From: Oscillospiraceae bacterium
Lineage (GTDB): Bacteria > Bacillota > Clostridia > Saccharofermentanales > Saccharofermentanaceae
Length of the DNA stretch: 64,000 nt
NCBI GenBank assembly: GCA_902802325.1
Contig: CADCLV010000008.1
Location: 1-64,000, forward strand
Reading direction: 5' to 3'
The notes under the pieces are model-generated. The model had not been told where the DNA came from. It saw only the letters and a list, made by a program, of their open reading frames with translations, and did no database searches. Positions 2,338 to 53,266 of this stretch are shown here, piece after piece; the first letter of the stretch is position 1, and the number at the start of each line of letters is the position of its first letter. The translations under genes were made by a program, and so were the position numbers.

Positions 2338-2987
2338 GATCGCACCTCGGGAAGGAGAGACAGGCAGCGGGCAAGTTTTGAAAGTTTGGAATATTCCACA
2401 GAAGTATGCATCCGGACAAGTTCTCCCAGCTTTTTTATATCCTCGACCTTACCCGAAGTCAGCTCGATCTCCATTTCACATATAGGAAGGTGCTTTCCGC
2501 CTCCCAGGCATTTCCCGCTATCCAGGCAGATCTCCATTTCACTGCTGTTAAACCGGACAAGATATGTTGTTCTGGTAAATTCAGTACGGCAGATCTCTAC
2601 GATTTCTTTATCCTTCAAAGGAATCAGGACAGAAGCCGCATATTCGACCGGATCTTCCTGATCTTTCACCGAAGAAAGAAAGGCATCGATATCGAAATCC
2701 CGTTCATCTGTCCTTCGGTTCCACTCATAATGGGAAGAAAGCCCGGTACGCATATCCAGTCCCCCTCGGGTCTTTACGGTCTGAATATAATTTGACCCCA
2801 CCACATGGCGGATCCGCATCGTGGAACGGGTGCCGGAAAGATAACGGGACGGGGTGTCCAGATAACGGTTCTCATATGTTTCGGTCTTTTTCTCCAATAC
2901 CGTAACACAAGACTTCAGCCATTCTTCTTCCATCACCGAAAAAAGAGCTTCATCAGAAGGGAACGTTAACTTGATCTCGTTTTCCAT
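2334..2987 (-). CDS. CYTH-domain protein (triphosphate tunnel enzyme type)
   Basis: About 217 residues. The protein opens with MENEIKL, which contains the ExExK signature of CYTH proteins. Alternating charged strands follow (TMRIRHV, IQTVKTRG, YEW, CEMEIELTSGK), as expected for the eight-stranded tunnel that binds triphosphates and divalent metal. Known relatives hydrolyse inorganic triphosphate or thiamine triphosphate, or act as adenylate cyclases. Which of these applies cannot be read from the sequence; triphosphatase is the most common activity in bacteria. The start is taken at the ATG at 2987 with GAGG 5 bases upstream, rather than the GTG two codons earlier. It sits between the DUF5711-like gene and the flavoprotein gene, overlapping the latter by four bases. 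Confidence 0.8.
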   Translation of the reverse strand: MENEIKLTFPSDEALFSVMEEEWLKSCVTVLEKKTETYENRYLDTPSRYLSGTRSTMRIRHVVGSNYIQTVKTRGGLDMRTGLSSHYEWNRRTDERDFDIDAFLSSVKDQEDPVEYAASVLIPLKDKEIVEICRTEFTRTTYLVRFNSSEMEICLDSGKCLGGGKHLPICEMEIELTSGKVEDIKKLGELVRMHTSVEYSKLSKLARCLSLLPEVRS

Positions 2988-3008
2988 GGGCACCTCCCCG
3001 AAAACAAA

Positions 3009-5682: not shown

Positions 5683-5692
5683 AGCTATCTCC

Positions 5693-7207: not shown

Positions 7208-7225
7208 TTTCGCGTCCCCCTTCCC

Positions 7226-8008
7226 TTAATTCTGACTCCAGCGTTTCTTTTCCAGCACCCGATAAGTGATGAAAACAAACACGAAAGTAAAGCTCAGGCA
7301 GAAGAATATCGGGACGATCTTAAATACACCCGAAGTAAAGCCTTCTGTCTTGCTGTACGGGTCAAACCATGTAATCGCGTTACGGATCCAGTCGCCGATT
7401 GAATAGATCGCACTATCAGAAAGACCAAACAGATGCGTGATCTTCAAAAGTGATTTGACGACCTCAGAGATCGAATCTGCAATGTTGGAAAGCATACTCA
7501 TCACAAGAAGGATAACAAAGCAAACCACAGCCGACATGATCTGATTTTCAGTCATAGCTGAAGTCAGCATGCCGACAGAAATGAACAATGCGGCCAGAAC
7601 CAGATAGGCCAGTATCGCTCCCCATGTCGCGGGACTGATGTATCCGGAAAGAATGACCGTGACGATCATATGGCTAAACAGGCAGACAAGCATCAATACC
7701 TGTAAAGCCATAGCAGCCAAAAACTTTCCGATTACAGCGCTTTTCATGGAGTACGGCATGGTATAAAGAAGCACATCCGTACCGTTTTTCTTTTCTTCGG
7801 CAAACAGCCGCATGGTAATGATCGGGATCAGGATAATAAAGAAAGTGCGGAGATAATCGATCTCCATGTTAATATCCACATAAGCCAGGCTGGAATTCAG
7901 CATACCGGAAAAATAATAACCGCTGATGATGCCCAGAAGGCTGATCGCCACCCAGCCAACCGGGGTCCGGAAATAGGAAAGAAATTCTCTCTTAAATATC
8001 GCAAACAT
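7226..8008 (-). CDS. ABC-2 permease, GldF-like
   Basis: About 261 residues, with an N-terminal amphipathic start (MFAIFKREFLSYFRTPVGW) and six hydrophobic spans, the layout of ABC-2 membrane subunits. The phrase RLFAEEKKNGTDVLLYTMPYS, just after the second span, is the conserved cytosolic loop of the GldF/NosY group. The longer frame start at 8053 is rejected because GAGGAG stands 6 bases before the ATG at 8008, directly behind the stop of the ATPase gene. It forms the channel partner of the ATPase at 8019-8954. The transported substrate is unknown. Confidence 0.85.
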   Translation of the reverse strand: MFAIFKREFLSYFRTPVGWVAISLLGIISGYYFSGMLNSSLAYVDINMEIDYLRTFFIILIPIITMRLFAEEKKNGTDVLLYTMPYSMKSAVIGKFLAAMALQVLMLVCLFSHMIVTVILSGYISPATWGAILAYLVLAALFISVGMLTSAMTENQIMSAVVCFVILLVMSMLSNIADSISEVVKSLLKITHLFGLSDSAIYSIGDWIRNAITWFDPYSKTEGFTSGVFKIVPIFFCLSFTFVFVFITYRVLEKKRWSQN

Positions 8009-8018
8009 AGTGTTCTCC

Positions 8019-8954
8019 TCACTTCTTTGGTGAAGTAATGCTGGTAAAAACATCTTCCAGCGAAGGTTCCATAGAACGGAACTCTAATATAGGTGCATTT
8101 AGACGGGCGATGGCAAACGAAATGGACTTTCTTACTTCCATGCTTCCCTCACAAGCCAGGTCGATCTGACAAATTCCGTTCTTTTCCGCCAGAGATCTCA
8201 CCGAATTGACGCCGGGTACAGCCCGGAGCGGCATCTGCAGAGTGCTGAAAGGAGCTTCCACAACAAGCAGATAATGCACATTATCCTCTACTCTTGAAGA
8301 AAGTTCAAAAGTCGGAGCATCGGCCACGATCTTACCGTTATTGATAATAATGACGCGGTCACAGATCGCCTGTACCTCTGAAAGAATATGTGAACTGAAA
8401 ATAATCGTATGATTCTTGGAAAGTGAGGTGATCAGTTTTCTCACTTCTATGACCTGATTCGGGTCAAGACCGACCGTCGGCTCGTCGAGGATGATCACTT
8501 CCGGATTGCCGATCAGAGTCTGGGCAATGCCGACGCGCTGCTTATAACCCTTAGACAGGTTATGAATAAGACGGCCGGAAACATTGCCGATATGGACCAT
8601 TTTCATAACATCAATGATCTGTTTCTTTCGGATATCTTTCGGTACCTTTTTTAATTCCGCCACATACTCAAGATACTCACTGACGGTCATATCCATAAAA
8701 AGAGGCGGGATCTCCGGTAAATAGCCGATATTCTTCTTCGCCAGCTCCGGCTCTTCCAGAATATCGTAGCCATTGATCGTCACCTTACCGCTTGTCGCCG
8801 ACAAATAGCCGGTGATAATATTCATCGTTGTGCTCTTTCCGGCACCGTTGGGGCCGAGAAAACCCAGGATCTCACCTTGGTTTACGGTAAACGAGATGCC
8901 GTTGACAGCCCGTTTATCCCCATAAAACTTAACTAGATTAGAAATCTCGATCAT
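8019..8954 (-). CDS. ABC transporter ATPase, GldA-like
   Basis: A 311-residue ATP-binding subunit. Seen in order: Walker A GPNGAGKST (residues 34-42), the Q-loop region in YLPEIPPLF, an ABC signature variant LSKGYKQRVG, Walker B VIILDEPTVGLDP and the switch histidine in IIFSSHILSE. The C-terminal 90 residues form the accessory domain found in GldA/CcmA-type exporters. It is the first gene of the operon running down to the left window edge. GAGAGGG lies just before the ATG. The AT-rich 90 bases upstream contain no clear -35 box, though TAAAAT could serve as a -10 element. Confidence 0.9.
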   Translation of the reverse strand: MIEISNLVKFYGDKRAVNGISFTVNQGEILGFLGPNGAGKSTTMNIITGYLSATSGKVTINGYDILEEPELAKKNIGYLPEIPPLFMDMTVSEYLEYVAELKKVPKDIRKKQIIDVMKMVHIGNVSGRLIHNLSKGYKQRVGIAQTLIGNPEVIILDEPTVGLDPNQVIEVRKLITSLSKNHTIIFSSHILSEVQAICDRVIIINNGKIVADAPTFELSSRVEDNVHYLLVVEAPFSTLQMPLRAVPGVNSVRSLAEKNGICQIDLACEGSMEVRKSISFAIARLNAPILEFRSMEPSLEDVFTSITSPKK

Positions 8955-9045
8955 GTACCCTCTCCTACGTGTGCATGTAACTTTGCGGAACTATTTTACC
9001 CCAAAACCGAATATCTATAAAGTCTTTAAGAAAGGCCCTTCTCTT

Positions 9046-9796
9046 TTACGAAAACCTGGACGAAAAAACATGCCGGCCTGTCGCGACCTCAAATCCATCG
9101 ATCTGTACGCCATCCTCCGTATTGGAACGGTAGATCTTCACTTCTTCTCCCGGCTTAACTTCAGATGCATAGTTGATCGTCATGGAACGGATCTGAGTAC
9201 TTACATCCTTCTGAGAATAAAAACTATCCTCACTCCAGGCGCATATTCCGGTCGATATCGCTATAGTCGGCATATCGTGTCAAAGTATGGGCATCGCCCC
9301 GATTCTCTTCCGTAAGCGGAAAAAGTTTGTCGATCTTCTGTTCGGAAGGCTCCTTACTTGCATATACATCCATACCCGGTATCGTGGACGGACGGACCGG
9401 CCGGTGATCTCCCTGCTGGGCAATGATCCATACAGAAGTCGCTCTTCCGATCTCTTCTTTATTCTCATCCAGAATGGCAAATTCACGGTTAAAGAGAACT
9501 TTCTGATATCCGCTCGACCAGGTCCGGATGTAGATCACATCTTTCCACTTCGGGATCTTTACCATATCGACCCGCATCCTAAGAAGCAGCCAGCACGCAT
9601 GATAGGAATCCATCACATCCGCGCCGAATCCGTGGTGATCCACATCCAGGCAGGCTGCTTCCTGCAGCATGGCACACAATGCATGATAATGCAGACGATC
9701 GGCGATATCCGTTTCCGTACCAATGATAGTGAAACGAAACAGATCTTCTTGAGGTATATACTGCATGATTTTTAATTCTTGAGGTATATACTGCAT
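9046..9796 (-). pseudogene. Acyl-ACP thioesterase gene broken by deletion and frameshift
   Basis: Two reading frames together give an acyl-acyl-carrier-protein thioesterase of the fatty-acid releasing type with two hotdog domains. The first frame (9796 down to 9230) carries the N-terminal hotdog: a conserved DVMDSYHACWLLLRMRV segment and IYIRTWSSG. It ends soon after YADYSDIDRNM, where family members continue with an HVNN-type motif that carries catalytic residues. That motif is absent. The next frame resumes at WSEDSFYSQKDV and runs through IRSMTINYASEVKPGEEVKIY to the stop at 9046. A stretch of roughly 10 codons, not a multiple of three bases, seems lost near 9240-9250. Either the gene is dead or the assembly is wrong here. 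The start carries a tandem duplication (separate entry). Confidence 0.75.
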
Positions 9797-9810
9797 GATT
9801 TTTAATCCTT
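9751..9810. repeat. 30-bp tandem duplication across the thioesterase start
   Basis: Positions 9751-9780 and 9781-9810 are the same 30 bases with one difference (T versus C near the end). On the minus strand each copy contains the ATG and the first codons, so the protein begins MQYIPQELKI and then repeats MQYIPQE. Only the outer copy keeps the AAAGGA ribosome binding site; in the inner copy it has become AAGAATT. The 30-base length preserves the frame. Confidence 0.95.
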
Positions 9811-10368
9811 TCCTGAGATCTTCTGACCCGGACGATACATCGTATTTCTGGGATTAAAACGATAAAAGGCTTTCAGCATACGCTCATCCGGTTCGATTAC
9901 AAGAAGGACTTTGGACTCGCCCATCCGGGTGGCAATATACCACTCTTTTTCCGGAGCCGTACCGGAAACACAAATACCGTGTAACGCATCGCTCTTATCG
10001 AATTCCGAATACGGATGACGTGCATCATCTTTCTTCGCAACCATTTCAAATTCACGGACCGATCCGGAAAAGAGTTCCGAGCGGCGGCTGCTGTTACGGA
10101 TCACATCAATGGTAAAACTGTCATTGACAACGGAATACTCAAATTCTTTCTTTAATCCGGTCACAAACATATAACAGCCAAATCCGATTCCGAAGGAAAG
10201 CACACCGGTAAAAAGGAACAGATACCCGATACCGAAGAACAACGGAAACACATTAACGATCAGAATTGCAAGGATAGCCAGAAGCACGATCAGCACACGC
10301 ATGACCTTCTCTTTGGTCGTGAATGACTTTTTCACCATGATCTCGACCATTACATCATTATTTATCAT
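9802..10368 (-). CDS. Small membrane protein of unknown function
   Basis: A 188-residue protein that I do not recognise. Two adjacent hydrophobic spans near residues 23-70 (VLIVLLAILAILIVNVF and LFLFTGVLSFGIGFGCYMF) are followed by a soluble domain of about 115 residues rich in short strands (EFEYSVVNDSFTIDVI, WYIATRMGESKVLLVIEPD). The layout resembles two-span, PH-like-domain membrane proteins common in Clostridia, but this is an impression only. GGAG lies 10 bases before the ATG. The stop is only 5 bases before the thioesterase ATG, so the two genes were co-transcribed. Confidence 0.6.
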   Translation of the reverse strand: MINNDVMVEIMVKKSFTTKEKVMRVLIVLLAILAILIVNVFPLFFGIGYLFLFTGVLSFGIGFGCYMFVTGLKKEFEYSVVNDSFTIDVIRNSSRRSELFSGSVREFEMVAKKDDARHPYSEFDKSDALHGICVSGTAPEKEWYIATRMGESKVLLVIEPDERMLKAFYRFNPRNTMYRPGQKISGKD

Positions 10369-10393
10369 CTGTACAACGCTCCAAGAAAGAAAT

Positions 10394-10423
10394 AGGGGCT
10401 ATGATCTTTCGACCATAACCCCT
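10394..10423 (-). terminator. Hairpin downstream of groEL
   Basis: The arms AGGGG and CCCCT, extended by TATG and CATA, enclose a purine-rich loop 24 bases past the groEL stop. The minus strand continues with ATTTCTTTC, a modest U-rich tail, so this probably ends the groESL transcript. Confidence 0.6.
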
Positions 10424-10446
10424 ACATTTTACCATTTTTACGACGA

Positions 10447-12069
<1,623 letters not shown>

Positions 12070-12087
12070 TTACCTCCTAGCGGGAAC

Positions 12088-12378
<291 letters not shown>

Positions 12379-12397
12379 TCACCTCCAGTAATTTTAT

Positions 12398-12424
12398 TTA
12401 GCACTCAACATATGCGAGTGCTAA
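12398..12424 (-). promoter_or_regulatory. CIRCE operator for HrcA
   Basis: A perfect copy of the CIRCE inverted repeat: TTAGCACTC, a 9-base spacer, then GAGTGCTAA. It lies between the promoter and groES, the classical place where the repressor HrcA binds in Firmicutes. hrcA itself is not in the window. Confidence 0.97.
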
Positions 12425-12435
12425 ATTCATTTACT

Positions 12436-12463
12436 ACTATACCATTAAGTGATGAGATGTCAA
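12436..12463 (-). promoter_or_regulatory. Sigma-A promoter of groESL
   Basis: Read on the minus strand, a perfect -35 box TTGACA (12463-12458) and a -10 box TATAGT (12441-12436) are separated by 16 bases. Transcription would start just upstream of the CIRCE element, so HrcA bound there would block it. Confidence 0.85.
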
Positions 12464-12489
12464 TATCAAAGAAAGACAAAAACAAATTT

Positions 12490-13872
12490 TTAACTATCGG
12501 AATCAGACTTGGTCGGATTTGCCTTTTCGGCTTCATAATCCAGATTCTTACCCGTGGAGAAGTCCACTTCGTGCTGCGGAGCTCTCGGAATTTCCTCTAC
12601 CGGGTCAAAAGGATACGTCTCTCCGTAGAAGAATTCCTGAACGATCGGGATCATACCGTTCCAATCGCAACGGATACTCCAGTCACCTTCACGGACATCA
12701 TCCGAGAAGAAACCTTCAACCGAATATCCTTCGACAGGAATACCCATAGTAAGGAGTTTCAGGTCTCTTACCTTCGGCAGGAAATCAAATGCATAGTCCT
12801 CGATCTCATCCGGAGAAATATTCGTTGCGATCATGCTCAGAATATCGTCCAGCGCAGAAAGCTTAGAGGTGGTGCTAAGGTTAGCGAACTTCTCCAAAAG
12901 CGCATTTAATACCTTAACCTGTCTTTCCGAACGGCCGTAAATACCGTTTCCTACCTGACGGATACGGCTATAAGCCACAGCCTGTCTGCCGTTCAGGTGC
13001 TGAAGACCGGCTTCGGAAAGTGTATAGGCGGAATCAGAATCACCATGCAGACGGTTCTGGTCACGAAGGTTATCGTTTAATCCGCCAGGTGTGTGGAACA
13101 CTTCGCTCTTTGTCAGTTCAATATCCACACCGCCAACTGCATCGATAACCTGTTCCATATGATAGAAGTTAACGAAAGCATATCCGTCCAATGTCAGACG
13201 CAGATGACTTTCCACAACAGCAGACAAAAGCTCAGGTCCGCCGTATGTCATAGCAGCATTGATCTTCTGCAGTTTCTTATGTCCGGGAATACTTACATAG
13301 CAGTCACGCTGGATCGTGACAAGCTTGATAGTACCTGCCTTGTCGTCTACGCTCATGACCATGATGACATCGGCAAGGCTGCCGGAACCGTCATCAGAAT
13401 AATTGCGGTCACGGCTGTCAATACCGATAAGCAGGAAGTTATGGATATAATCCTCTTCTACCGGAGCTTCACTGGTTTCAGACGTATAGTGGACCAGTGA
13501 TACAACAGAGCCTTCTTCATCTACAAAGGTAGGATTTTCCTGCTTCGGAATGAATTCGATCTTACTAAAGAGATATTTCTTATACTGCTGATAGCCGATA
13601 TACGCACCGCCAACAAGGATCACCAGTACCAGAAGGATCGGTACGATGATACGAAGCATGACACGCTTAAATGTCCACGGTTTCTTCACTTTTCTTCTTC
13701 TCCCGGGCTGTCCGTTATGTGCCTGGCTGCTATGAGGCTGACCACGACGCGGTTGCGGTTCGGCATGCCGGTTTGCAGGACCTGTGTGCCGTCCCTTATC
13801 ATCAATATGTTCAATATGGTATCTCTCCGCCAAAGAAGGCGTACGATGTGGTGGTTGCTGTCTTCTTTCCAT
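12490..13872 (-). CDS. LytR-CpsA-Psr family wall polymer ligase
   Basis: A 460-residue membrane protein. Residues 1-65 form a basic, glutamine- and histidine-rich cytoplasmic tail. A single membrane span follows (IIVPILLVLVILVGGAYIGY) and then the extracellular LCP domain. Family motifs seen are LLIGIDSRD, ADVIMVMSVD, KLVTIQRDCYVSI and GYAFVNFYHMEQVIDAVGGVDIEL, which carry the conserved Asp and Arg residues that bind the polyprenyl pyrophosphate head group. LCP enzymes attach teichoic acids or other glycopolymers to peptidoglycan. The ribosome binding site is weak (AAGGA lies 18 bases upstream). It follows the envelope genes at 13995-19842, which fits a wall-polymer role. Confidence 0.9.
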   Translation of the reverse strand: MERRQQPPHRTPSLAERYHIEHIDDKGRHTGPANRHAEPQPRRGQPHSSQAHNGQPGRRRKVKKPWTFKRVMLRIIVPILLVLVILVGGAYIGYQQYKKYLFSKIEFIPKQENPTFVDEEGSVVSLVHYTSETSEAPVEEDYIHNFLLIGIDSRDRNYSDDGSGSLADVIMVMSVDDKAGTIKLVTIQRDCYVSIPGHKKLQKINAAMTYGGPELLSAVVESHLRLTLDGYAFVNFYHMEQVIDAVGGVDIELTKSEVFHTPGGLNDNLRDQNRLHGDSDSAYTLSEAGLQHLNGRQAVAYSRIRQVGNGIYGRSERQVKVLNALLEKFANLSTTSKLSALDDILSMIATNISPDEIEDYAFDFLPKVRDLKLLTMGIPVEGYSVEGFFSDDVREGDWSIRCDWNGMIPIVQEFFYGETYPFDPVEEIPRAPQHEVDFSTGKNLDYEAEKANPTKSDSDS

Positions 13873-13994
13873 ACTCAGTTTCAGATTTTTCCTTCAATCT
13901 TTTCCATGTCGATTAACTTAACTTGAATCAATCTACCACTCCAAAACCAAATTGTCTATGAATTTAAGTGACTCTTCATTCACATTACATATTT

Positions 13995-14726
13995 TTAACC
14001 TGGTGTTGCAGATGGCTCTGTTGTCGCTTCTGTGGTGGTTGTCTCCGTCACCTCATCTGTTCCCTCAACCGATTCAGAAACCTGCCCGGCCGATTCGGTA
14101 TGTACCTCTCCTTTACCGCTGATCGACACCGGCAGATAGTCCATCACACTGACGATATATTCATCAAGCTTGATGGTTCCTTTCTGAGTCCGGTTCTGAA
14201 TATAATCATCGGCATGGAAGAACGTGATTGCGCCAAAATAGGTAACCACAGCGATCACCAGAGCCAGGAAAGCCAGTTTTACCAGAAGCATGACGGTGAT
14301 GCCGGAATTCTGGAAAAACTCCACGATCGGGGTTCTTCTCCGGATCTTGGTATCCGGTGTCGAGGACATAAATTCAGCAATACGGAAACGTGGTGAATCG
14401 ATTCGTTCCAGGATCGTGTGCTTCATTGTTGAAGCCGTATACTCATCCAGATTTTTCTCCGGCGGAGCCGCATCGTTGATCACCGGATACTTGGCCATAA
14501 GCTCATTAATATGAAACTGCAGAGCATCGGAGAAATAATAAATCACCTTTTCTTCTGTAAGCTTGGCACGCTTATGGTAAGTATCGATGAACGAATCCAC
14601 TACGCACATTTCCGCGCGGGTGGTATCTCTCAGATTCTTATATGCACACTTGTAGGCAAAAGCGGCATACAGATCGTAAAACTCTTCAATATTTTCACGG
14701 GTCAGTTTGGCATTCCAGATTTCCAT
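13995..14726 (-). CDS. Single-span protein with sigma-region-2-like N-terminus
   Basis: A 243-residue protein that I do not recognise as a family. The N-terminal 80 residues read like region 2 of an ECF sigma factor: EEFYDLYAAFAYKCAYKNLRDT then EMCVVDSFIDTYH, matching the pattern of a helical core binding RNA polymerase. No region 4 helix-turn-helix follows. Instead there is one membrane span near residues 146-168 (VMLLVKLAFLALVIAVVTYFGAI) and an outside tail rich in Thr, Glu and Ala (TETTTTEATTEPSATPG). GAGGAG precedes the ATG. The gene starts 4 bases after the sensor-MFS gene ends. A role linking an envelope signal to transcription is speculation; the likeness to sigma factors is by eye. 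Confidence 0.55.
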   Translation of the reverse strand: MEIWNAKLTRENIEEFYDLYAAFAYKCAYKNLRDTTRAEMCVVDSFIDTYHKRAKLTEEKVIYYFSDALQFHINELMAKYPVINDAAPPEKNLDEYTASTMKHTILERIDSPRFRIAEFMSSTPDTKIRRRTPIVEFFQNSGITVMLLVKLAFLALVIAVVTYFGAITFFHADDYIQNRTQKGTIKLDEYIVSVMDYLPVSISGKGEVHTESAGQVSESVEGTDEVTETTTTEATTEPSATPG

Positions 14727-14730
14727 ATAC

Positions 14731-16656
14731 TCACTCCTCCCCGTTCTGTCTCGGTACGCGCAGCTGCTGGGACTTCTTCCCGTTAGGACGCTGAGCGGAA
14801 GAATTGTCCATCAGTGTCAGAAGCGGATACGAAGACGAAATTACGAATATGATCAGTGCGATCGCGAGCATCGGCACACGCACACTGGTAAAAGCATTTG
14901 CCATTCCGAAAACGACTGTACCGATCATGGTACCGCCGGTAAAAGCACGCATCAGGATCACCCTTGCAACCGGGTGCTTATCCTGGCGGATCAGAGATTT
15001 ATAGTAACTGAGGTACCCAAACTCATGGGTTCCCTGAGAAAGACCCAGGAAAGCAACACCGATGACCAGAAGTTTCGCCGACGGAGCCAGGGCAAAGACC
15101 AGATAACCGATGGAACTGAGCATGGCAGCAATCGTGATACGCATTTTGGCCGAGAAGAAATCCTCAAACCAAATGATCAGGATACGCATTACGACCTGTC
15201 CGCAGATAATAGCAAGGAGATAGTAGAACGATACGGTCGCCAGAGAGATCCTTACTTTTCCGAGGTAATCCGGAATAAATACCAGGAAGAAAGCGAACTG
15301 CAGGCCCAGTGGGAAGATCGTACTCCAGGCAAATGTGCCGGATTTCGAATTCTTTAAAGCATAGAAATAATTCGGCAGACGAACGATCGGTTCGTTGGAA
15401 GGCGGACAATGACGCACAAAATACAGAACCTGGATCGCATCCACAAACAGGAAGAAAGAGGCGATCATCAGTACGGCAAACAAACCGAAACGCTCATACA
15501 GGATACCGCAGATAACGGCACCGACTGCCGCGCCAAGAAGATATCCGCTGTACTGGCACTGATGGATCTTTCTGTCCGAAAACTCTTCCTGACCGGTTCT
15601 GTCTGCCTGAATACGGTATTCTCTCTGGAACTGGAACAGCATACCCAGGAAAAAGCCGATCGGCAGCTGCAGGAAGACGATCAGATAAGGCTGACCTATA
15701 AGGCCACAGATAAGGAGCATAACAAATGCACTGACTACAGAAACGATCACCGCAAGGCGGGCAGTCAGCTTCCGGATCATGAGATCGCGAATATGGATAA
15801 AGCGCCAGAATCCCAGTAAATACAGAAGGCATGCCAGAACGATCCACATATGGAGGACCACCTGATTATCGGAATATTCAGTCATGGAATCCTTCAGATA
15901 GGAAGAAAGCACGATCAAAGGCATCGTACAGCCGACACTGGAGAAAAAGGCAATCAGCCGGTAGGTTGCATTTCCATACATAACCGCTCTCGGAACACCG
16001 GTATTCGGCTTTCTGATCAATGTGTCCAGCAGACGGTACATTTCAGAATAAATGACCGCGATGGCAACAGAGATCGAAATGATGGTAAAGATCCAGGAAA
16101 GCGACATGCCGTTTTCCGTCTTTACAAATGCAGACTGCGGGATCATGATCTCCACGATACCGGACATGGTGCCGTCAGCGCCGATGATCGGAGCAACAGA
16201 TGTGACATACAGCACATTCTCATAACGGCGGTGGGTCACGATCAGCTGCTGCTGATCATATGCTTCCATATACTCTTCGCCGGCACCGGAAAGAACATAC
16301 TGTTTGCCATCCTCATGGGAGCGGTCGGAAGTATAAACGCGTACGAAGGAATTACCTGCTTTAACAAATACGTTGGCCGTGTAGTGTTTACCGGTATCAT
16401 ATTCAGGAAGATCCAGAGGGAAAGACATTCCTTCTACAAGATCACGGTTGGATAAAGCTACCGAAGATGCTGCCGTATACGACGACAGCGCACTCTTTCT
16501 CTGGGACTGGAGCGCAGAGCAGTACACATTCGTTACTAATGTGGACACGACAAAAAGAATAACCAGTGTCGTGATCAGACAGAAGCCGATCTGACTGGCT
16601 ACCGCCTTCTTCCCTTTCGGTGCTTTTGCAAAATTCTCATAAACAAAGTCGTTCAT
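14731..16656 (-). CDS. Sensor-MFS fusion: Cache-like domain plus MFS transporter
   Basis: A 641-residue membrane protein. A first span (about residues 23-45) is followed by some 140 extracytoplasmic residues with a Cache/PAS-like ending (VAPIIGADGTMSGIVEIMI), then a second span (about 186-206). From about residue 230 comes a transporter-like module with some 12 spans and major-facilitator features such as YSGYLLGAAVGAVICGILYERFGL and the late IGVAFLGLSQGTHEFGYLSYY. The N-terminal half resembles the sensor part of chemoreceptors or histidine kinases. The ATG overlaps the stop of the preceding sensor-like gene by four bases, and GGAGG lies 7 bases upstream. Ligand and substrate are unknown. Confidence 0.75.
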   Translation of the reverse strand: MNDFVYENFAKAPKGKKAVASQIGFCLITTLVILFVVSTLVTNVYCSALQSQRKSALSSYTAASSVALSNRDLVEGMSFPLDLPEYDTGKHYTANVFVKAGNSFVRVYTSDRSHEDGKQYVLSGAGEEYMEAYDQQQLIVTHRRYENVLYVTSVAPIIGADGTMSGIVEIMIPQSAFVKTENGMSLSWIFTIISISVAIAVIYSEMYRLLDTLIRKPNTGVPRAVMYGNATYRLIAFFSSVGCTMPLIVLSSYLKDSMTEYSDNQVVLHMWIVLACLLYLLGFWRFIHIRDLMIRKLTARLAVIVSVVSAFVMLLICGLIGQPYLIVFLQLPIGFFLGMLFQFQREYRIQADRTGQEEFSDRKIHQCQYSGYLLGAAVGAVICGILYERFGLFAVLMIASFFLFVDAIQVLYFVRHCPPSNEPIVRLPNYFYALKNSKSGTFAWSTIFPLGLQFAFFLVFIPDYLGKVRISLATVSFYYLLAIICGQVVMRILIIWFEDFFSAKMRITIAAMLSSIGYLVFALAPSAKLLVIGVAFLGLSQGTHEFGYLSYYKSLIRQDKHPVARVILMRAFTGGTMIGTVVFGMANAFTSVRVPMLAIALIIFVISSSYPLLTLMDNSSAQRPNGKKSQQLRVPRQNGEE

Positions 16657-44429: not shown

Positions 44430-45173
44430 TCAGAAATCCCAGTAATCGGAATCCACTTCTTCGGAAGAATCCTCCTTGAATTCCTGTGTCTCCTGGTAGT
44501 CGTCCTCGAGTACGGTCTCTTTGAACTCTTCCTTTTCCTTGATCTGTTTTTCGCCCTGTTTTTTCGGCTCGAAAGGATTCTCGGCAATATCGGAAATATC
44601 AGAAGAGGCTTCAGAAACTTCGGATTTCACTTCCTCAGCAGATTCGGCATAATCATACGGCATCTCCGTAAAGCTCGGGTCGGAGATCCGATCCAGATAG
44701 CTGTTCAGGTCATCAAGATCATGCTCCAATTCGGCCTTGGCCTTCTCTTCAGCAGCAACTCTTTCTGCTTCTTTTCTGGCAAATGCTTTTTCTTTTGCCT
44801 CCTGGATCGCCTTTCGCTTTTCTTCGAAAGCCTTGTCGTCTTCTTCCTTCTGCTTTTTCATTGCCTGCTCTTCACGTTCCTGGCGCAGACGACGAAGCTC
44901 GGCAGCACGTGCCTCGACTTTTTCTTTTTCACGGCGACGCTGCTCATCGATAACTTCCAGCCCCAGTTTCTGAAGCTCGATCTGTTCTTTACTGAGTTTC
45001 GTAGTCTCGGCCATCTTCATGATGTCCTGAGCCTGCGTCTTCGGAGTTCCAAGCGTTAACTTATTCTCCGCAGGAGCAGAAAAGTCCGATGCGGCCTCAA
45101 TTATTTCGCTCATATCCGGAAGCCGGATATTCGATACGAAAGGATATTTCTTTTTCTTCTCACCCTCGCTCAT
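44430..45173 (-). CDS. Charged coiled-coil protein of the kinase/phosphatase operon
   Basis: A 247-residue protein of unknown function. Residues 1-60 are mixed. A very charged helix, probably a coiled coil, covers about residues 60-150 (EQRRREKEKVEARAAELRRLRQEREEQ and similar), and the C-terminal 90 residues are acidic and Ser-rich (EVSEASSDISDIAENPF, EDSSEEVDSDYWDF). No span or signal. GGGGGG stands shortly before the ATG, 12 bases after the phosphatase gene. Being the last gene of an operon with a kinase and a PP2C phosphatase, and full of Ser and Thr in an acidic context, it may be their substrate or scaffold; that is inference. Confidence 0.6.
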   Translation of the reverse strand: MSEGEKKKKYPFVSNIRLPDMSEIIEAASDFSAPAENKLTLGTPKTQAQDIMKMAETTKLSKEQIELQKLGLEVIDEQRRREKEKVEARAAELRRLRQEREEQAMKKQKEEDDKAFEEKRKAIQEAKEKAFARKEAERVAAEEKAKAELEHDLDDLNSYLDRISDPSFTEMPYDYAESAEEVKSEVSEASSDISDIAENPFEPKKQGEKQIKEKEEFKETVLEDDYQETQEFKEDSSEEVDSDYWDF

Positions 45174-45185
45174 TGTGACCCCCCA

Positions 45186-46340
45186 TCACATAAGTGTAAG
45201 TATTAATGCAACCAAAGAAGCTGCGAACCCCAAAAGCACCAGAAGGAAAGCCCACAGCGGCACCACTTTCCGCTCTTTCGGAGAAACAGTTTCGGCCTTT
45301 TTCTCATCAGTTTCCGGAAGAGTTTCTTTTTCCGGAGAGGCTTTCTTTTCCGGCTTCGTTTCCTCTGCCGGTTTCTTTACTTCATGCTCATCAACATCAC
45401 TTTCGCATGCTTCTTTCTCTACTGTATCACTCTTTTCACCATTCTGGCAACGGATTTTCGTCAATATCTCCTGGGCCTTTTTGACCTGTGGGATCAATTC
45501 CATCTGTACTGCCTTCATGGTATCGTTATAATCGCGTTCCACTTTGGCTTTGCTGTCACAAAGCGCGCCAAAGTCCGGAGTCGCGGTATCGGAAAAATAG
45601 ACGATACCCACAGAAGCATCATCTGTATTCTGACCGGCACCGACTACAAATTCCTGGATCGTATTTCTTAATTCTTCTTCCGCTTCCACTTTTCCCTTTG
45701 CGGCAAGCTCGGCAAGTCTCGCCACCACCGGACGGATCAGCTGAGAGGAAGAATCGTAAACCATCTCTTCCACACCATCCGTCATAAGAACGAAAGCATG
45801 GGTATCATCTGTCGTTGTGCGGATAAAGCGCAGATATTCCTGGGCATTCGGGAAAGTAATAAAATAGGTGGAGGAAGCATTCTCTCCATTCGCCGGAAGC
45901 GTGACCGGCGAGATCCCCTGCGAAGAAACCCGGCAGATCATACCATCACCGATATGTCCAGCTAAAACCAGATCTCCTTTGACCGCAACAAAAAGAAGCG
46001 TACAGGAAAGGCGCTCCAGGCCGTCCAGTTCATGTTCCTGAAGAAGCGGAGCCATCGCCGAATGGATCGCCGTAACCAGGATCGTTCTCGAGATGCTTTC
46101 TCTGTTTTCAAAATAAAAGGCGTCAAAATGCCGGCAAAGAAGATCAGCTACTGTCTCACAGGCGCATTTCGAGCCGAATCGGGCATGGGTATATTTGGCG
46201 CCGCCGGCGCCGTCCGACACACACATGACGGAAACCCCGTTGGAAGTCTTTGAAAAAGAAGAATCCTCACATGGAGTACCGCGGTTAATATGTTTGTTTC
46301 CGATCAGAGAAACATTAACAAGTGTCGGAAGAGCTCGCAT
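45186..46340 (-). CDS. PP2C-family serine/threonine phosphatase with C-terminal anchor
   Basis: A 384-residue protein. Residues 1-250 are a PP2C phosphatase: TPCEDSSFSK, MCVSDGAGGAKYTHARFGS, LAGHIGDGMICRVS, FVLMTDGVEEMVYD and NTDDASVGIVYF carry the Asp metal ligands. A charged helical linker of about 100 residues rich in Lys and Glu follows, and the protein ends in one membrane span (VVPLWAFLLVLLGFAASLVALILTLM), a tail anchor. The enzyme would remove phosphate from Ser or Thr at the membrane. It lies between the VWA gene and the coiled-coil gene. The pairing of VWA, PP2C and kinase matches the TerY-P triad described for tellurite-type stress systems. Confidence 0.88.
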   Translation of the reverse strand: MRALPTLVNVSLIGNKHINRGTPCEDSSFSKTSNGVSVMCVSDGAGGAKYTHARFGSKCACETVADLLCRHFDAFYFENRESISRTILVTAIHSAMAPLLQEHELDGLERLSCTLLFVAVKGDLVLAGHIGDGMICRVSSQGISPVTLPANGENASSTYFITFPNAQEYLRFIRTTTDDTHAFVLMTDGVEEMVYDSSSQLIRPVVARLAELAAKGKVEAEEELRNTIQEFVVGAGQNTDDASVGIVYFSDTATPDFGALCDSKAKVERDYNDTMKAVQMELIPQVKKAQEILTKIRCQNGEKSDTVEKEACESDVDEHEVKKPAEETKPEKKASPEKETLPETDEKKAETVSPKERKVVPLWAFLLVLLGFAASLVALILTLM

Positions 46341-46343
46341 TTC

Positions 46344-47093
46344 TTATTTACTCTCCTCAATGGCCTTGAAGAAATCATCCATGGCCAGAGCATTTCCTTC
46401 CGGCTCCGTATTGAGATTATAGAGTGCATCATTATTCATGCTGTTCGATACAACAGACGAACTACTGGAACCCAGGAAAGCAAAAAGCTTACCGAACTGG
46501 GCGGTGCTGATCGAGATCGGCTTTTCACGCTTTCCGGAAAGACGCTGAAGCATCGGGAAGTCGGCACTGTTACCGACACCGATATTAAATACCACCAGTT
46601 TATCGTTATCTTCCAGCTCACGGACGGCTTCGATAGCCTTCTCCATGTTCTCGACAGCATTGTCACCCTGAGGCGCGCCGTCAGTGATTACCACAAGCCA
46701 CGGCTGATAGTACTTGATACCCATCTGCTTATAGCCTTCCTTACGGGCATTGAGAAGCTCGAGGGCCGTAAGGATACCTTCACCGATCGGAGTAAGGCTT
46801 GTCGTCGCCTGAAGTTTCGGAATCACCTGTTCTTTACTGGTCTTACCAAACGGCAGGAAAATATCGACCGATCCGCCGAAAGTAATGATCGCAATATCTG
46901 CGGAAGAACGGGTCTCATCATTATCACGGATCGAAGAAAAAAAGCTCTGTAATCCGTTATTCAGCTGCTCGATCGGATAACCGGCCATAGAACCACTGAT
47001 ATCCAGACAGAAACAGATCGGAAGACGTCTTCTTGTGCTGCTGCCAAAATCAGATTTTGAAAAACCACTCGCTCCGGTTGTCTCGTTGCTCAT
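46344..47093 (-). CDS. TerY-type VWA domain protein
   Basis: A 249-residue cytoplasmic von Willebrand A domain. The MIDAS metal site is visible: FCLDISGSMAG (DxSxS), the Thr in TTSLTPIGEGILTALELL and the Asp in VVITDGAPQGDN. ALELLNARK and the TPIGEG turn are shared with TerY-like proteins of stress-response clusters. The C-terminal tail holds a run of serines (LGSSSSSVVSNS). VWA domains bind partner proteins through the metal. GGAGG lies before the ATG. It sits between kinase and phosphatase genes, so it probably assembles or tunes these two. Confidence 0.88.
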   Translation of the reverse strand: MSNETTGASGFSKSDFGSSTRRRLPICFCLDISGSMAGYPIEQLNNGLQSFFSSIRDNDETRSSADIAIITFGGSVDIFLPFGKTSKEQVIPKLQATTSLTPIGEGILTALELLNARKEGYKQMGIKYYQPWLVVITDGAPQGDNAVENMEKAIEAVRELEDNDKLVVFNIGVGNSADFPMLQRLSGKREKPISISTAQFGKLFAFLGSSSSSVVSNSMNNDALYNLNTEPEGNALAMDDFFKAIEESK

Positions 47094-47123
47094 AGTATTC
47101 CCCTCCTGTAACTTCGAATAGAT

Positions 47124-49010
47124 CTATTTAAAATACCGAAGAAGTTCGATGCCAAAGGCTAAAGAAAGATATAACGCCAGGTTCCATCTCTTCTTTTTAA
47201 AGAATGCCGCAAGGCCCTTCTTCTGTTCAGGCTTTGCCTGTTCTGCTGCTTTTTCTCCGTTTTGTTCCGGAGCCGGTGCCGATGAAGTATGCTGGGCGGC
47301 CATTCTGTTCGCCAGCGCGCTGGAAGTGGCCGGTTTTCCGGATTGACCGGAAGAAGTCCGGATCTGTGTCTGCTGAGGCGGATTCGAACTGCCCTTAAAG
47401 CTTAAGTGCGCCTGCTCCGGCTTCGGCTTCGGTTTCTCTTCCTGATGCAGCGGTACCTGACGGGCATAAGAATTCGCCGCTTCCGGAGTATTCATGGAAG
47501 AACTCATGACGGCTTCCCTGATTCCCATCTTCCCGCCTTTTTTCTTCACCTGCGGATCCGGTTCTTCCACATAATACGGGAAAACACGGTATACCTCAGG
47601 ATCATCATATTCATGGGCATTCAGCTTGTCGCGATACTCCTCCAAAGCAACTGTCCACTCTACGCAGTCAAACAGTTCGCCCTCAGCAAACGCTCTTACG
47701 AACATATCCTTAAGAGTCGGAGTCAGCGCATCCCAGATCTTATCATAACCGCCAAGCGGAATACGGTCGTTCTGAGAATCATCCGTAGTATACGGGAAAG
47801 AACGCGCTTCCATCTCATCGCGCAATGTCTCCAGACCATTTCTCTGTGCATACGGATGCTGGCCGCAGAAAAGCATGGAGAATACCAGGATCGCAACAGA
47901 ATAATCCTCATCCTGCGGACGGCGCAGGAAAGAAACGAAGGACTTATCCCACAGCTCCGGACGGGTAAACTCTTCCGTACCTACCGGACACGGCAGATCC
48001 TGATACTGCACACTGTCAATATCGATGAGATAAACATGACTATCATCATCGATCATAGCATTTTTCAACTGAATATCACCGGCAAGAACGCCATGCAGAT
48101 GCATGTAGTCCATGATCCGAAGGAAAGAAATTGCGGATTCCACCACATTTACACGTTCCCAGCACGGGAAATTCTCTTCCATGGCATCCGGTCCGTCAAA
48201 AGCACGGCTGATGGTACTTCCGGACGCTTTCTTCATAAGATATCCGACAGGCATCTTCTCATTCGAATATAAAAGCTTATAGGGCCAGCAGATATTGACA
48301 GCATTCAGTCCCAGCTGACGCATCTTCATAAGCTTATACCAGCGCAGCGGTGTAATTCCGCCCTTGTGATATATCTTCGCCACATACTGCTCGTCTTCGG
48401 TGCAGAAAACAAGTCCCTCGGCGCCGGTACTGATCAGCGAAGTTAATGTCAGTCTCTGATCATCATCGGTATACACATAATCGCCTACGCTGAAATAGTG
48501 AGACGAGGCAATGAAATCGCTGTTACCGGAAATGGGATTCACACTATAGCCCGGCTCTTCCTCCATACATTCGTCAATGGTAGGATAAAACCGGATCCGG
48601 CCCTGATCGATCACAAAGATCGCGCTCTTTCTCTGAGCATTGATATTGCGAAGACGGGTAAAGCTGCTGCTGTTCCTTCCGATAAAGAAACACTCGTTTT
48701 CATTTCCCAGATGCTCAAGGAAAAAATCAACTGTCGATGCGCTCTTGCTGACACGCATAAGCTTGGCATCAGCCATGCACTTCAAAGATTGCCGGGTCTG
48801 GTACACGATTGCTTTTTCATTGGGGTTATTGGCTTTTATAACACATTCGTGGAAGGCTTTAAAACCGCCGCTGACAAATACGGTCTTCTGTTGCGCAACA
48901 ATAGAGCCGACCAATGCTTCCTGCATTGCCGGATCTCGGAATTCCAGAAAAGCAGAATAATCTACTACAATTGAAGTGTAGTCTTGCAGCAGTTCAGCAA
49001 AATCAGCCAT
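47124..49010 (-). CDS. Protein kinase with PIN-like N-terminus and tail anchor
   Basis: About 628 residues. Residues 1 to about 150 look PIN-like: strand IVVDYSAFLEF with an Asp, VFVSGGFKAFHE, then CFFIGRNSSSFTRLR. The kinase domain follows: glycine loop STGAEGLVF, Lys in YVAKIYHKG, catalytic loop HGVLAGDIQLKNAMI and a DID in place of DFG, then RPELWDKSF in place of APE. The C-terminus has a Pro, Gln and Ser rich linker and ends with a basic stretch and one membrane span (WNLALYLSLAFGIELLRYF). It is first in the operon. The ATG at 49010 has GGGGG 5 bases upstream; an ATG at 49022 four codons earlier is also possible. Kinase identity is solid, PIN identity is tentative. Confidence 0.82.
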   Translation of the reverse strand: MADFAELLQDYTSIVVDYSAFLEFRDPAMQEALVGSIVAQQKTVFVSGGFKAFHECVIKANNPNEKAIVYQTRQSLKCMADAKLMRVSKSASTVDFFLEHLGNENECFFIGRNSSSFTRLRNINAQRKSAIFVIDQGRIRFYPTIDECMEEEPGYSVNPISGNSDFIASSHYFSVGDYVYTDDDQRLTLTSLISTGAEGLVFCTEDEQYVAKIYHKGGITPLRWYKLMKMRQLGLNAVNICWPYKLLYSNEKMPVGYLMKKASGSTISRAFDGPDAMEENFPCWERVNVVESAISFLRIMDYMHLHGVLAGDIQLKNAMIDDDSHVYLIDIDSVQYQDLPCPVGTEEFTRPELWDKSFVSFLRRPQDEDYSVAILVFSMLFCGQHPYAQRNGLETLRDEMEARSFPYTTDDSQNDRIPLGGYDKIWDALTPTLKDMFVRAFAEGELFDCVEWTVALEEYRDKLNAHEYDDPEVYRVFPYYVEEPDPQVKKKGGKMGIREAVMSSSMNTPEAANSYARQVPLHQEEKPKPKPEQAHLSFKGSSNPPQQTQIRTSSGQSGKPATSSALANRMAAQHTSSAPAPEQNGEKAAEQAKPEQKKGLAAFFKKKRWNLALYLSLAFGIELLRYFK

Positions 49011-49027
49011 ACGCACCCCCATCTTTT

Positions 49028-49068
49028 TTGCCTTATATCATTATAAGGCAACAAAACGTTCCGCTCAA
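49028..49068 (-). promoter_or_regulatory. Promoter and palindromic operator of the kinase operon
   Basis: On the minus strand TTGAGC (49068-49063), a 17-base spacer and a perfect TATAAT (49045-49040) form a sigma-A promoter. The -10 box lies inside a perfect palindrome with 10-base arms (TTGCCTTATA and TATAAGGCAA, 49028-49051) and a 4-base centre. A dimeric repressor bound there would cover the -10 box and the start site. As an RNA hairpin it lacks the T-run of a terminator. Confidence 0.75.
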
Positions 49069-50429: not shown

Positions 50430-52265
50430 TTATTCTTCAATTCCGACCAGTTTCATTAGATACTTCGCATTTGTCTCCGAAGACATACCCGCTTTTAATT
50501 TGTAGTCAAAATGCAGGCCATCATCATCAAAATATTCAGAAAAGTGATAAAACACCAGATCTACTTCTCCGTTAGTATCCATTTTACAAAGCTCATAATC
50601 GTGGGTCGACATCATACCGATGATCTTCGGACTATGAAGTTTTTTCAAAACGATCCATGCGCCATCAGTTCTGTCTTTCGAATTCGTGCCACGGAAAATC
50701 TCATCGATCAGGAACAAAAGAGGGGTTCCGCTTTCAGAAGCACGAACGATCCGCTCGATCTTAACAAGCTCCGCATAGAATGTGGAAACGCCTTCACCCA
50801 GATTATCTTCTATACGCATGGAAGCGGCCACCCGCATAATTGACAGCGAAAGTGCTTTTGCCGGGCACACCGCGCCGGTATAGGCCAGGATCGTATTGAT
50901 GCCGACAGTTCGAAGAAGTGTCGTCTTACCCGACATATTCGATCCTGTGATCATGGCACAGCCCCGGTCAAGCTTAAAATTATTCCGTACGACACGCTTT
51001 TCTTCAATAAGCGGATGGCCCATCTCCTCCGCTTCAAAGAAAGGCAGATCTTTTTCAAGTATCTCCGGCATGCAGCCATCCGGGAAGATCATTCCCATCA
51101 AAGAAAGACTCATCAAGGCTTCCCACTCGCCTATCGCCTGAAGTTTCTCCGGAATCTCCTTACCGGATTCTTTTCTCCACTTCTCCAGAAGATGCAGACA
51201 GATCTCATCAAACGGCATCGCCACATTCAAGACGAAATATAAAAGAGGCTGCATACGCGCCTGAATCAGAAGACAGATCATATAAAGCGATGAGAGCTGA
51301 TTTGAGGCAGACCGGTTCGTGCAGTTTTCTTCGCTTTTCCCATAAAGCTGATCTCTCAATCCCTGAAGATACGAAGCCTTTACTTCAACATTTTCAAGTC
51401 CGGTAAATATATTCGAATAAGCACGAAGCTCCGGATAGAATTTTTCCACCAGATCAAACGTGACCGCATGGGTCTTATAGCAAAGTGCCATCATCCCCAT
51501 CTGAAAGATCAAAATCGCAGACGGGAATATCAGATAGTATCCGCCCATGACCATGCCGGCAATAAGACTGAGATAAAACAATACAGCCAGGCTGATGCGG
51601 AGAACGAGAAATCCTTTTTTCATCCCTGTGACCGGAGCCGCAATAAAGGCCAGAAGTGCCTGTGGCGAGCCCTTCTTCTTTACATTCATCCGCGTGGAAG
51701 CTTCCAGTTCTTCAACCAGTGAAAGCCGGGAAGAAAGTTCTTTTACCGCTTCCTGCCTCGAAAGAATATCTTCACGGGAAATGCTCTGTGAATCCGCCAG
51801 CAGAAGCCATTTTTGAAGCTGTCTGCGGCCGTATGCGGTATGTGCAATATTGATCAGATGAAAAAGTGACTTCGGTCCGAAAATATCAAGGTCTCCGGAA
51901 AAAGCATGCTTCTTGATCTGAAGGTCAGATCCGTCATCCGGAAGTTTTGAAAAATCATGGAGTGTCCTTGCCATATTCGCTTCGTGGATCTCCTTTAACA
52001 CGGCGATCCGCTGTGCTTTGGCTTTGATCCTTCCATGAATAGCCACAAGAATTATAAACCCCAGAAAGACCACGCAGGCCGGAATCAGAAAAACAAACTG
52101 TTTTTTCACAAAAAACAGCACAAAAAGAACCAGCGCCCCCACAAAACAGATACCTCTGTAATTCGCCAGGCCGCCGGCTTTCTCTTCTATACGTTTCCAT
52201 TCTTCTTCTAACGCGATCCGTCTTTCTTCTAATACCTGATCTCGTTTTTCTTTTTTCTCACTCAT
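50430..52265 (-). CDS. Membrane-bound MutS-like ATPase
   Basis: A 611-residue protein. Two membrane spans near residues 40-80 (GICFVGALVLFVLFFV and FVFLIPACVVFLGFIILVAI) and two more near 225-270 surround a MutS core-like helical part. The C-terminal third is a MutS ATPase: Walker A GSNMSGKTTLLRT, the family phrase ASMRIEDNLGEGVSTFYAEL, Walker B LLFLIDEIFRGTNSKDR and MMSTHDYELCK. It lacks the mismatch-recognition domain I. The function of such membrane MutS-like proteins is unknown. It begins 5 bases after the sirtuin stop, with only a weak ribosome binding site. Confidence 0.85.
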   Translation of the reverse strand: MSEKKEKRDQVLEERRIALEEEWKRIEEKAGGLANYRGICFVGALVLFVLFFVKKQFVFLIPACVVFLGFIILVAIHGRIKAKAQRIAVLKEIHEANMARTLHDFSKLPDDGSDLQIKKHAFSGDLDIFGPKSLFHLINIAHTAYGRRQLQKWLLLADSQSISREDILSRQEAVKELSSRLSLVEELEASTRMNVKKKGSPQALLAFIAAPVTGMKKGFLVLRISLAVLFYLSLIAGMVMGGYYLIFPSAILIFQMGMMALCYKTHAVTFDLVEKFYPELRAYSNIFTGLENVEVKASYLQGLRDQLYGKSEENCTNRSASNQLSSLYMICLLIQARMQPLLYFVLNVAMPFDEICLHLLEKWRKESGKEIPEKLQAIGEWEALMSLSLMGMIFPDGCMPEILEKDLPFFEAEEMGHPLIEEKRVVRNNFKLDRGCAMITGSNMSGKTTLLRTVGINTILAYTGAVCPAKALSLSIMRVAASMRIEDNLGEGVSTFYAELVKIERIVRASESGTPLLFLIDEIFRGTNSKDRTDGAWIVLKKLHSPKIIGMMSTHDYELCKMDTNGEVDLVFYHFSEYFDDDGLHFDYKLKAGMSSETNAKYLMKLVGIEE

Positions 52266-52270
52266 GAATA

Positions 52271-53266
52271 TTATGTTTCTTTCTTTTTCCCTTTTGCCGT
52301 ACTCTTCGACGCACTCTTTGATGTACTCTTCGACACATTCTTCGAAGCGCTCGTCTTGGCTGCCGTTTTTTTCGCAGTAGAGGACTTATTCGCAGAAGAA
52401 GCTTTCTTTTCAGTAGTCTTTTTCGAAGCAGTTTTCTTCGCTACTGTCTTTTTGGAAGAAGCTTTCTTTACCGATGTTTCCGGTTTCTTTTTCGGAATAT
52501 ACTTAGAAATGGCCTCATCCAGTACAGCACCAATACTGTCATGGATCGTAAGCATTGCCTGAAGATCCAGATAAGTAGAACTCTTATTGACGATGACCAC
52601 ACGGTCGCTCTTTAAGAACTGGGCAAAGGTCGCAGCAGGATACACTGTCAGTGAAGTACCGCCGATTATCAGAAGATCCGCCTTTTTAATTGCTTTTACG
52701 GCATTATCGATATTCTCATGCTCCAAATGCTCCTCGTAAAGCACCACATCCGGACGGACGATCCCGCCGCACTTGGTGCAATGCGGAACACCTTTGCTCT
52801 TCAATACGAAATTCAGATCATACTTTTCGCCGCACTCGAGACAATAGTTACGGAATACAGAACCATGAAGTTCAATTGTAGTCGTACTTCCTGCCATTTG
52901 ATGCAGATTATCGATATTCTGGGTGATCGTTGCCTTCAGTTTTCCCTGCTTTTCCAGACGCACCAAAGCACGATGAGCCTTATTCGGACGAGCCTTCGGA
53001 TAACAGAGCTTTCTCTTATAAAAGTCGAAGAATTCTTCCGGGTGAGCTTCAAAGAAGGAGTGACTGATAATATCTACCGGACGATACGAAAGACCGCTTT
53101 CCTGATTGAAGATACCTTCGCCGCTTCGGAAATCGGGAATGCCGCTTTCCGTCGAGACGCCGGCGCCTCCTAAGAAAACAATGTACTTCGATTCTTTGAT
53201 CAATTGTTTAAGCTGAGCGATTTTTTTCTCGCGTGCACCTTCATATCGATCCAGTCTGGTTTCCAC
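52271..53266 (-). CDS. Sirtuin deacylase with histone-H1-like basic tail
   Basis: A 331-residue protein. Residues 1-260 form a sirtuin: GGAGVSTESGIPDFRS, TQNIDNLHQMAGS, the catalytic His in IELHGSVFRNYC, zinc cysteines in CLECGEKYD and HCTKCGGIVRPD, and GGTSLTVYPAA. These remove acyl groups from lysine with NAD. The last 65 or so residues are a tail of Lys, Ala, Ser and Thr in KKTA/KKAS-like repeats, like histone H1 or bacterial AlgP/HC1 proteins, which bind DNA. The start is GTG at 53266 with GGGGAG 5 bases upstream. It is followed closely by the MutS-like gene. Confidence 0.92.
   Translation of the reverse strand: METRLDRYEGAREKKIAQLKQLIKESKYIVFLGGAGVSTESGIPDFRSGEGIFNQESGLSYRPVDIISHSFFEAHPEEFFDFYKRKLCYPKARPNKAHRALVRLEKQGKLKATITQNIDNLHQMAGSTTTIELHGSVFRNYCLECGEKYDLNFVLKSKGVPHCTKCGGIVRPDVVLYEEHLEHENIDNAVKAIKKADLLIIGGTSLTVYPAATFAQFLKSDRVVIVNKSSTYLDLQAMLTIHDSIGAVLDEAISKYIPKKKPETSVKKASSKKTVAKKTASKKTTEKKASSANKSSTAKKTAAKTSASKNVSKSTSKSASKSTAKGKKKET

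Follow-up and report, generated by a model that had tools for sequence, protein, structure and literature searches.

The 64,000-nucleotide stretch studied here (the window) is the first part of contig CADCLV010000008.1 from an Oscillospiraceae bacterium of the Saccharofermentanaceae. Its minus strand carries four consecutive open reading frames (ORFs) encoding a protein kinase, a VWA protein, a PP2C phosphatase and a charged coiled-coil protein, with intergenic gaps of 30, 3 and 12 bases. The ORF positions reproduce the four genes, coordinates and spacings of a first-pass annotation of this DNA. Comparison with other genomes suggests that the operon is a family-fixed, TerY-P-like module in which the kinase bears a decayed PIN domain, the phosphatase is tail-anchored and a fourth gene is constant. 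The features are as follows.

49040..49068, minus strand: promoter-like site TTGAGC-17-TATAAT ahead of the operon (10/12 matches; conserved in the genus)
47124..49010, minus strand: kinase gene, 628 residues (ATG at 49010 favoured over 49022; the ORF covers 47124-49022)
48558..49010, minus strand: putative degenerate PIN-like domain at the kinase N-terminus, residues 1-151 (AlphaFold2 and structural matches)
47616..48485, minus strand: protein kinase domain, residues 176-465 (kinase fold by Foldseek; catalytic residues invariant)
47127..47189, minus strand: C-terminal segment of the kinase, weakly hydrophobic (best 19-mer hydropathy 1.07)
46344..47093, minus strand: TerY/YegL-type VWA protein, 249 residues (Pfam PF00092; YegL homologue with invariant metal-ion-dependent adhesion site, MIDAS)
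46347..46388, minus strand: C-terminal DDFFK tail of the VWA protein (motif in 77/80)
45186..46340, minus strand: PP2C phosphatase, 384 residues (Pfam PF13672; invariant metal ligands)
45189..45254, minus strand: C-terminal membrane span of PP2C, a predicted tail anchor (hydropathy 2.76)
44430..45173, minus strand: fourth gene, charged helical/coiled-coil protein, 247 residues, net charge -24 (fourth gene in 76/80 loci)
45078..45149, minus strand: conserved N-terminal motif KYxF...LPDMxEIxxAASDF of the fourth protein (all five genera)
44433..44531, minus strand: conserved tail at the C-terminus of the fourth protein, acidic and rich in Ser/Thr

All four genes occur in this order in 76 of 80 named loci. 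Scattered homologues that are never adjacent, the contrary outcome considered in the first-pass annotation, were thus not what the comparison revealed. There are four exceptions. Two loci end 70 and 0 bases past the last gene found, and at L175 the sequence stops 2 bases past a misplaced PP2C hit. At the fourth, the closest relative (L106), the sequence stops 761 bases past a shortened PP2C frame. This frame (L031, 762-1451), next to a kinase 97% identical to that of the window, stops after 229 residues near the contig end; it probably reflects a frameshift or an assembly error. In the window itself, a longer spurious ORF on the same strand overlaps the fourth gene, so that greedy ORF calling overlooks this gene; its presence was confirmed by hand.

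A GGGGGTG stretch resembling a ribosome-binding site lies directly upstream of the ATG at 49010 and is kept across the genus. TATAAT with a 17-base spacer is found 28-31 bases ahead of the start codon in 21/21 genus members, the -35 element being mostly TTGTTA(C). Because both the TATAAT spacing and GGGGGTG are kept, 49010 is the probable translation start of the kinase, and a promoter of its own probably serves the operon.

The order was surveyed through 115 genomes of the window's family and 73 genomes of three sister families. The PIN-kinase was found in 108 of the 115 family genomes, including every good-quality one; the seven that lack it are 64-88% complete, all under 90%. None of the 73 sister-family genomes has it. 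In a sample of the phylum, strong matches were obtained in 8/398 genomes, the window's own included. Of 38 neighbourhoods inspected, nearly all encode the kinase, the VWA protein, the PP2C and the coiled-coil protein in the window's order; a MutS-like gene precedes the set, and in most cases lysA does too. The family locus is single-copy and occupies one chromosomal place. In a tree of kinase domains, from which the PIN domain was left out, the branching tracks genera, the family forms one clade (support 98/98) and a single split separates every PIN-bearing kinase from the rest (98/98). Trees of VWA and PP2C are consistent with one family clade, but their branches are long and they settle nothing beyond this. 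Since the operon is near-universal in the family, fixed in place and tracks genera in the tree, and is sporadic elsewhere, sequence comparison indicates that it is a vertically inherited core locus and not a mobile stress cassette.

Ratios of nonsynonymous to synonymous substitution rates (dN/dS), rough here with synonymous sites near saturation, are 0.04-0.07 for VWA, PP2C and kinase, 0.13 for the PIN-like domain and 0.25-0.41 for the linkers, values that point to purifying selection on the operon proteins.

The operon resembles known triads. TerY-P triads comprise a TerY-like VWA protein, a PP2C and a Ser/Thr kinase with a C-terminal zinc ribbon, and were first described in the tellurite (ter) stress setting (PMC11090510). 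Family profiles match the E. coli proteins YegI (3e-32), YegL (1e-38) and PphC (1e-15). The likeness to a TerY-P trio proposed at first pass is therefore borne out by homology of all three proteins to YegI, YegL and PphC and by the conserved gene order. No zinc ribbon was detected on the window kinase, either as a Pfam match or as any cysteine past residue 480. Because this ribbon is missing, the trio is, as judged from sequence, TerY-P-like and not TerY-P proper. As in the TerY-P triad, a single operon encodes these three protein families, with VWA metal site and catalytic residues kept. It differs in having no zinc ribbon and no ter genes, an N-terminal PIN-like domain on the kinase, a tail-anchored PP2C and a fourth gene, and in being fixed in a family rather than patchy.

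The E. coli yegI-pphC-yegL locus is also chromosomal and encodes three homologous proteins. According to PMC13232886, citing Rajagopalan, YegI is reported as a membrane Ser/Thr kinase that autophosphorylates and is dephosphorylated by PphC. Unlike the window kinase, YegI lacks a PIN domain and contains a helix-hairpin-helix region as well as an internal span; PphC is not tail-anchored, YegL has no DDF tail, there is no coiled-coil gene and the gene order is different. Actinobacterial trios combine a kinase bearing a zinc ribbon or a transmembrane segment with PP2C and vWA near GAP1-N2 GTPases (PMC7159879). The membrane-linked kinase is alike, whereas the window has no GTPase system and no PIN domain is described there. 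The first-pass annotation had called the operon an undescribed signalling unit. For the triad this goes too far, as triads of this kind are described (PMC11090510, PMC7159879). It is a fair term for the variant with a PIN-kinase and for its fourth gene, of which we found no description in open papers, a scope that excludes the original TerY-P paper and Gao 2020.

Kinase residues 1-150, overlooked at first pass, are confidently predicted by AlphaFold2 as a domain, with a predicted local distance difference test (pLDDT) score of 85.9. Its best structural neighbours are the PIN domains of Utp24, AF0591 and SMG6 (Z 8.2-9.0 over 113-120 residues, root-mean-square deviation 3.5-4). The top Foldseek match is also a PIN protein (E 2e-3), at E-values that are modest overall. 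Of the PIN acids, 79 of 81 family sequences keep the first Asp and 24 keep the Glu, which is retained in the window's genus; none keeps the fourth Asp, this position being Asn, Lys or Arg. The domain has dN/dS of 0.13 in the genus and 0.24 in the sister genus, compared with 0.07 and 0.10 for the kinase domain; it is, by this measure, still under purifying selection. Because acidic residues of a PIN nuclease are lost, the domain is most likely a degenerate PIN-like domain that binds RNA or protein without cutting.

The kinase domain follows. The whole AlphaFold2 model has a pLDDT of 90.6, and K212, D312, N317 and D330 are invariant in 81/81 family sequences; both Asp of the DxD are invariant as well. 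The Pfam Pkinase match (2.3e-06) falls under the family cut-off, which marks the kinase as divergent. NCBIfam matches of the kinase are far under cut-off (for instance LanL kinase, 33 bits against 650), a sequence search of the PDB with the kinase retrieved weak generic kinases only, and PADLOC gave generic kinase matches only, for the window and for the outside sets described below, so that no named defence system was retained. A C-terminal OB-fold was not found on the kinase either: PADLOC matches cover the kinase domain only, and STK_OB reaches E 0.03 over residues 281-338. For a helix-hairpin-helix there is no Pfam match on the kinase, and the profile match to YegI stops at the kinase domain.

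Both kinase and phosphatase had been proposed to end in a membrane span. For the PP2C this stands: the C-terminal span is present in 77/80 relatives and in none of the outside PP2Cs. For the kinase it does not stand as a general feature: the window's own segment is weak. A strong C-terminal span occurs in 10/21 members of the window's genus, 6/6 of three other genera and 0/54 of the sister genus, whose kinases end in a basic aromatic tail. We dropped the span as a defining feature of the kinase. As the PP2C span is nearly constant and the kinase span varies among genera, it is the phosphatase, not the kinase, that provides the constant membrane anchor.

The PP2C matches Pfam PP2C_2 (PF13672) with E 8.5e-39, and its metal ligands show no variation (79-80 of 80 sequences). 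The VWA protein matches PF00092 with E 1.5e-16; MIDAS residues D31, S33, S35, T101 and D138 are invariant in 80/80 sequences. Its DDFFK tail is found in 77/80 VWAs against 3.7 expected in shuffled tails, and is missing from YegL and most outside VWAs.

Taken together, we consider it reasonably probable that one Clostridia family, Saccharofermentans and relatives, has turned a PIN-kinase TerY-P-like module into a fixed housekeeping switch. In such a switch, the kinase would phosphorylate itself and an operon partner, and PP2C would reverse this phosphorylation at a membrane patch set by its anchor. The metal site of the VWA protein may serve to keep the components assembled, and the pseudo-PIN domain may sense or dock. 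The fourth protein could be substrate or adaptor, acting through two conserved motifs, one at the N-terminus and one, acidic and Ser/Thr-rich, at the C-terminus.

Several points weigh against this account. Z scores of 8-9 for the PIN-like fold are close to the level of chance arrangements. Alignment of the family PIN-like domain with outside PIN domains using hhalign is weak (probability 7.6%, E 0.0046), so that a common origin of the PIN domains rests on fold, position and kinase tree, and in this tree support for the sporadic clade is 78/48 only. The window's own domain retains D17, E55 and perhaps D95, making a remnant activity possible. The C-terminal tail of the fourth protein differs in three genera. 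Finally, phosphotransfer and dephosphorylation by the operon products are predictions from sequence, and the substrate role of the fourth protein is conjectural.

The fourth protein has no Pfam family. Across loci it is 123-448 residues long with a net charge of -2 to -54, and forms a highly charged helix in which opposite charges at i/i+4 are frequent. Its middle evolves fast (dN/dS 0.22-0.25). These properties would suit a structural scaffold or spacer that travels in the operon and is not a kinase substrate. We regard this as possible but on the unlikely side, as both ends are conserved short motifs. At the N-terminus, KYxF/I...P-D/N...AASDF is shared by all genera and dN/dS of the motif is 0.12 in the genus. 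The C-terminus is acidic and Ser/Thr-rich in the two large genera, and in the window's genus the tail is under purifying selection (0.087). A DDFxxF-like end is found in 47/77 fourth proteins against 5.7 expected in shuffled tails. We hypothesize that this end and the DDFFK tail of the VWA protein bind one partner.

Sporadic PIN-kinase/VWA/PP2C sets are found elsewhere in Bacillota (L099, L225, L226, L227, L229). They share with the family an N-terminal PIN and a related kinase domain, VWA, PP2C and the same order, and lie on the sister side of the kinase tree. They differ in keeping all four PIN acids, mostly ending the kinase in a C-terminal zinc ribbon and being patchy, and often have two VWAs or a helix-turn-helix (HTH) gene in front, with no tail-anchored PP2C and no DDF tail. 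Outside kinases give N-terminal PIN_4 matches with E 2e-4 to 7e-5, and at the C-terminus the majority have zinc ribbons or treble clefs. The four acids are invariant in six outside PIN kinases (D19, E55, D100 and D122 in A6). A PDB search with the outside PIN profile gave nothing useful.

In the closest outside set (L099, genome G282, 2-15000), a zinc-ribbon PIN kinase, two VWAs and PP2C, preceded by an HTH gene, have type III restriction genes on one side and type I methylase/specificity genes on the other. L225 (G759, 8800-15935), from another family, has two tandem PIN-kinase genes, two VWAs and PP2C. Its VWAs are 87-91% identical to those of L099, which suggests transfer between distant families. 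At L100 (G410, 6105-10017), a TIR-TPR protein is encoded directly ahead of the genes for a PIN-kinase and a VWA protein; a PP2C was not seen at this locus. Judging by their neighbourhoods, L099, L225 and L100 look like defence-type cassettes. The L100 kinase has GCPDPAS instead of GDIxxxN and has lost the usual motifs; it may be a pseudokinase. In L226 (7786-10296) and L227 (1282-3816), an IF2_N-like helical domain precedes the PIN domain of the kinase.

A more specific history can be proposed tentatively, though we give it rather low credence. A mobile PIN-nuclease conflict module would have been captured once in the family ancestor. Its nuclease would have been switched off and its phosphatase anchored in the membrane. 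It would also have acquired a novel partner whose DDFxxF-like C-terminal tail mimics that of the VWA protein, both competing for one docking site. The outcome would be a universal, possibly essential membrane switch derived from a defence module.

That the family operon is itself a stand-alone anti-phage module seems unlikely to us. As cited in PMC11090510, Gao et al. 2020 attribute stand-alone phage defence to TerY-P-like sets in which the kinase has an OB-fold replacing the zinc ribbon. The outside sets lend this idea some weight, with L099 flanked by a type III restriction subunit and by type I restriction-modification genes, L100 behind a TIR protein, and sets that are almost identical although their families are distant. 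A patchy distribution is usual for defence modules. The family locus, on the other hand, is single-copy and occupies one position in every good-quality genome, and its tree tracks genera. It has no adjoining effector gene, decayed PIN acids and no specific PADLOC match.

It is less probable still that the PIN-like domain remains a ribonuclease whose RNA cleavage is controlled by the kinase/phosphatase pair. The PIN fold, the nearly constant D17 (79/81), the Glu retained in the window's genus and the four acids kept by PIN kinases elsewhere would fit such a role, but the fourth acid is never Asp in the family, the Glu is gone in most members and the evolutionary rate of the domain is about double that of the kinase domain. 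A tellurite or metal stress (Ter) response, suggested by the TerY-type VWA and the setting of the first TerY-P descriptions (PMC11090510), was rejected as very improbable: TerC and TerD are missing from the genome, extending the absence of ter genes noted at first pass, TerD occurs in 1/58 family genomes, and the kinase has no zinc ribbon.

TerY-P-like triads are mostly known from patchy stress or defence loci and from the E. coli locus. A module that every good genome has in one place, always accompanied by the fourth gene, provides a setting in which its native job can be found, and the family includes cultured isolates (record titles KHP2, AB4001, YRB3002 and YAD3003). The intact PIN of the sporadic sets and the decayed PIN of the fixed set form a testable case of a defence-type module becoming a housekeeping one.

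The neighbours of the window operon are lysA, MutS-like and Sir2 genes, with no restriction-system association. The MutS-like ATPase (50430-52265) has N-terminal membrane spans, and its gene lies upstream of both lysA and the operon at nearly all of the family loci inspected; lysA is missing from its place ahead of the operon in part of the sister genus. The Sir2 deacetylase (52271-53266) ends in a tail that is rich in Lys, Ser and Ala and resembles histone H1 (HC2 match, E 8e-4); this tail occurs throughout the window's genus and in some members of the sister genus, and is missing in the other genera. A second triad type with no PIN domain occurs in other genomes of the order and phylum (L104, L105, L231, L232), often with an extra small gene encoding about 250-400 residues.

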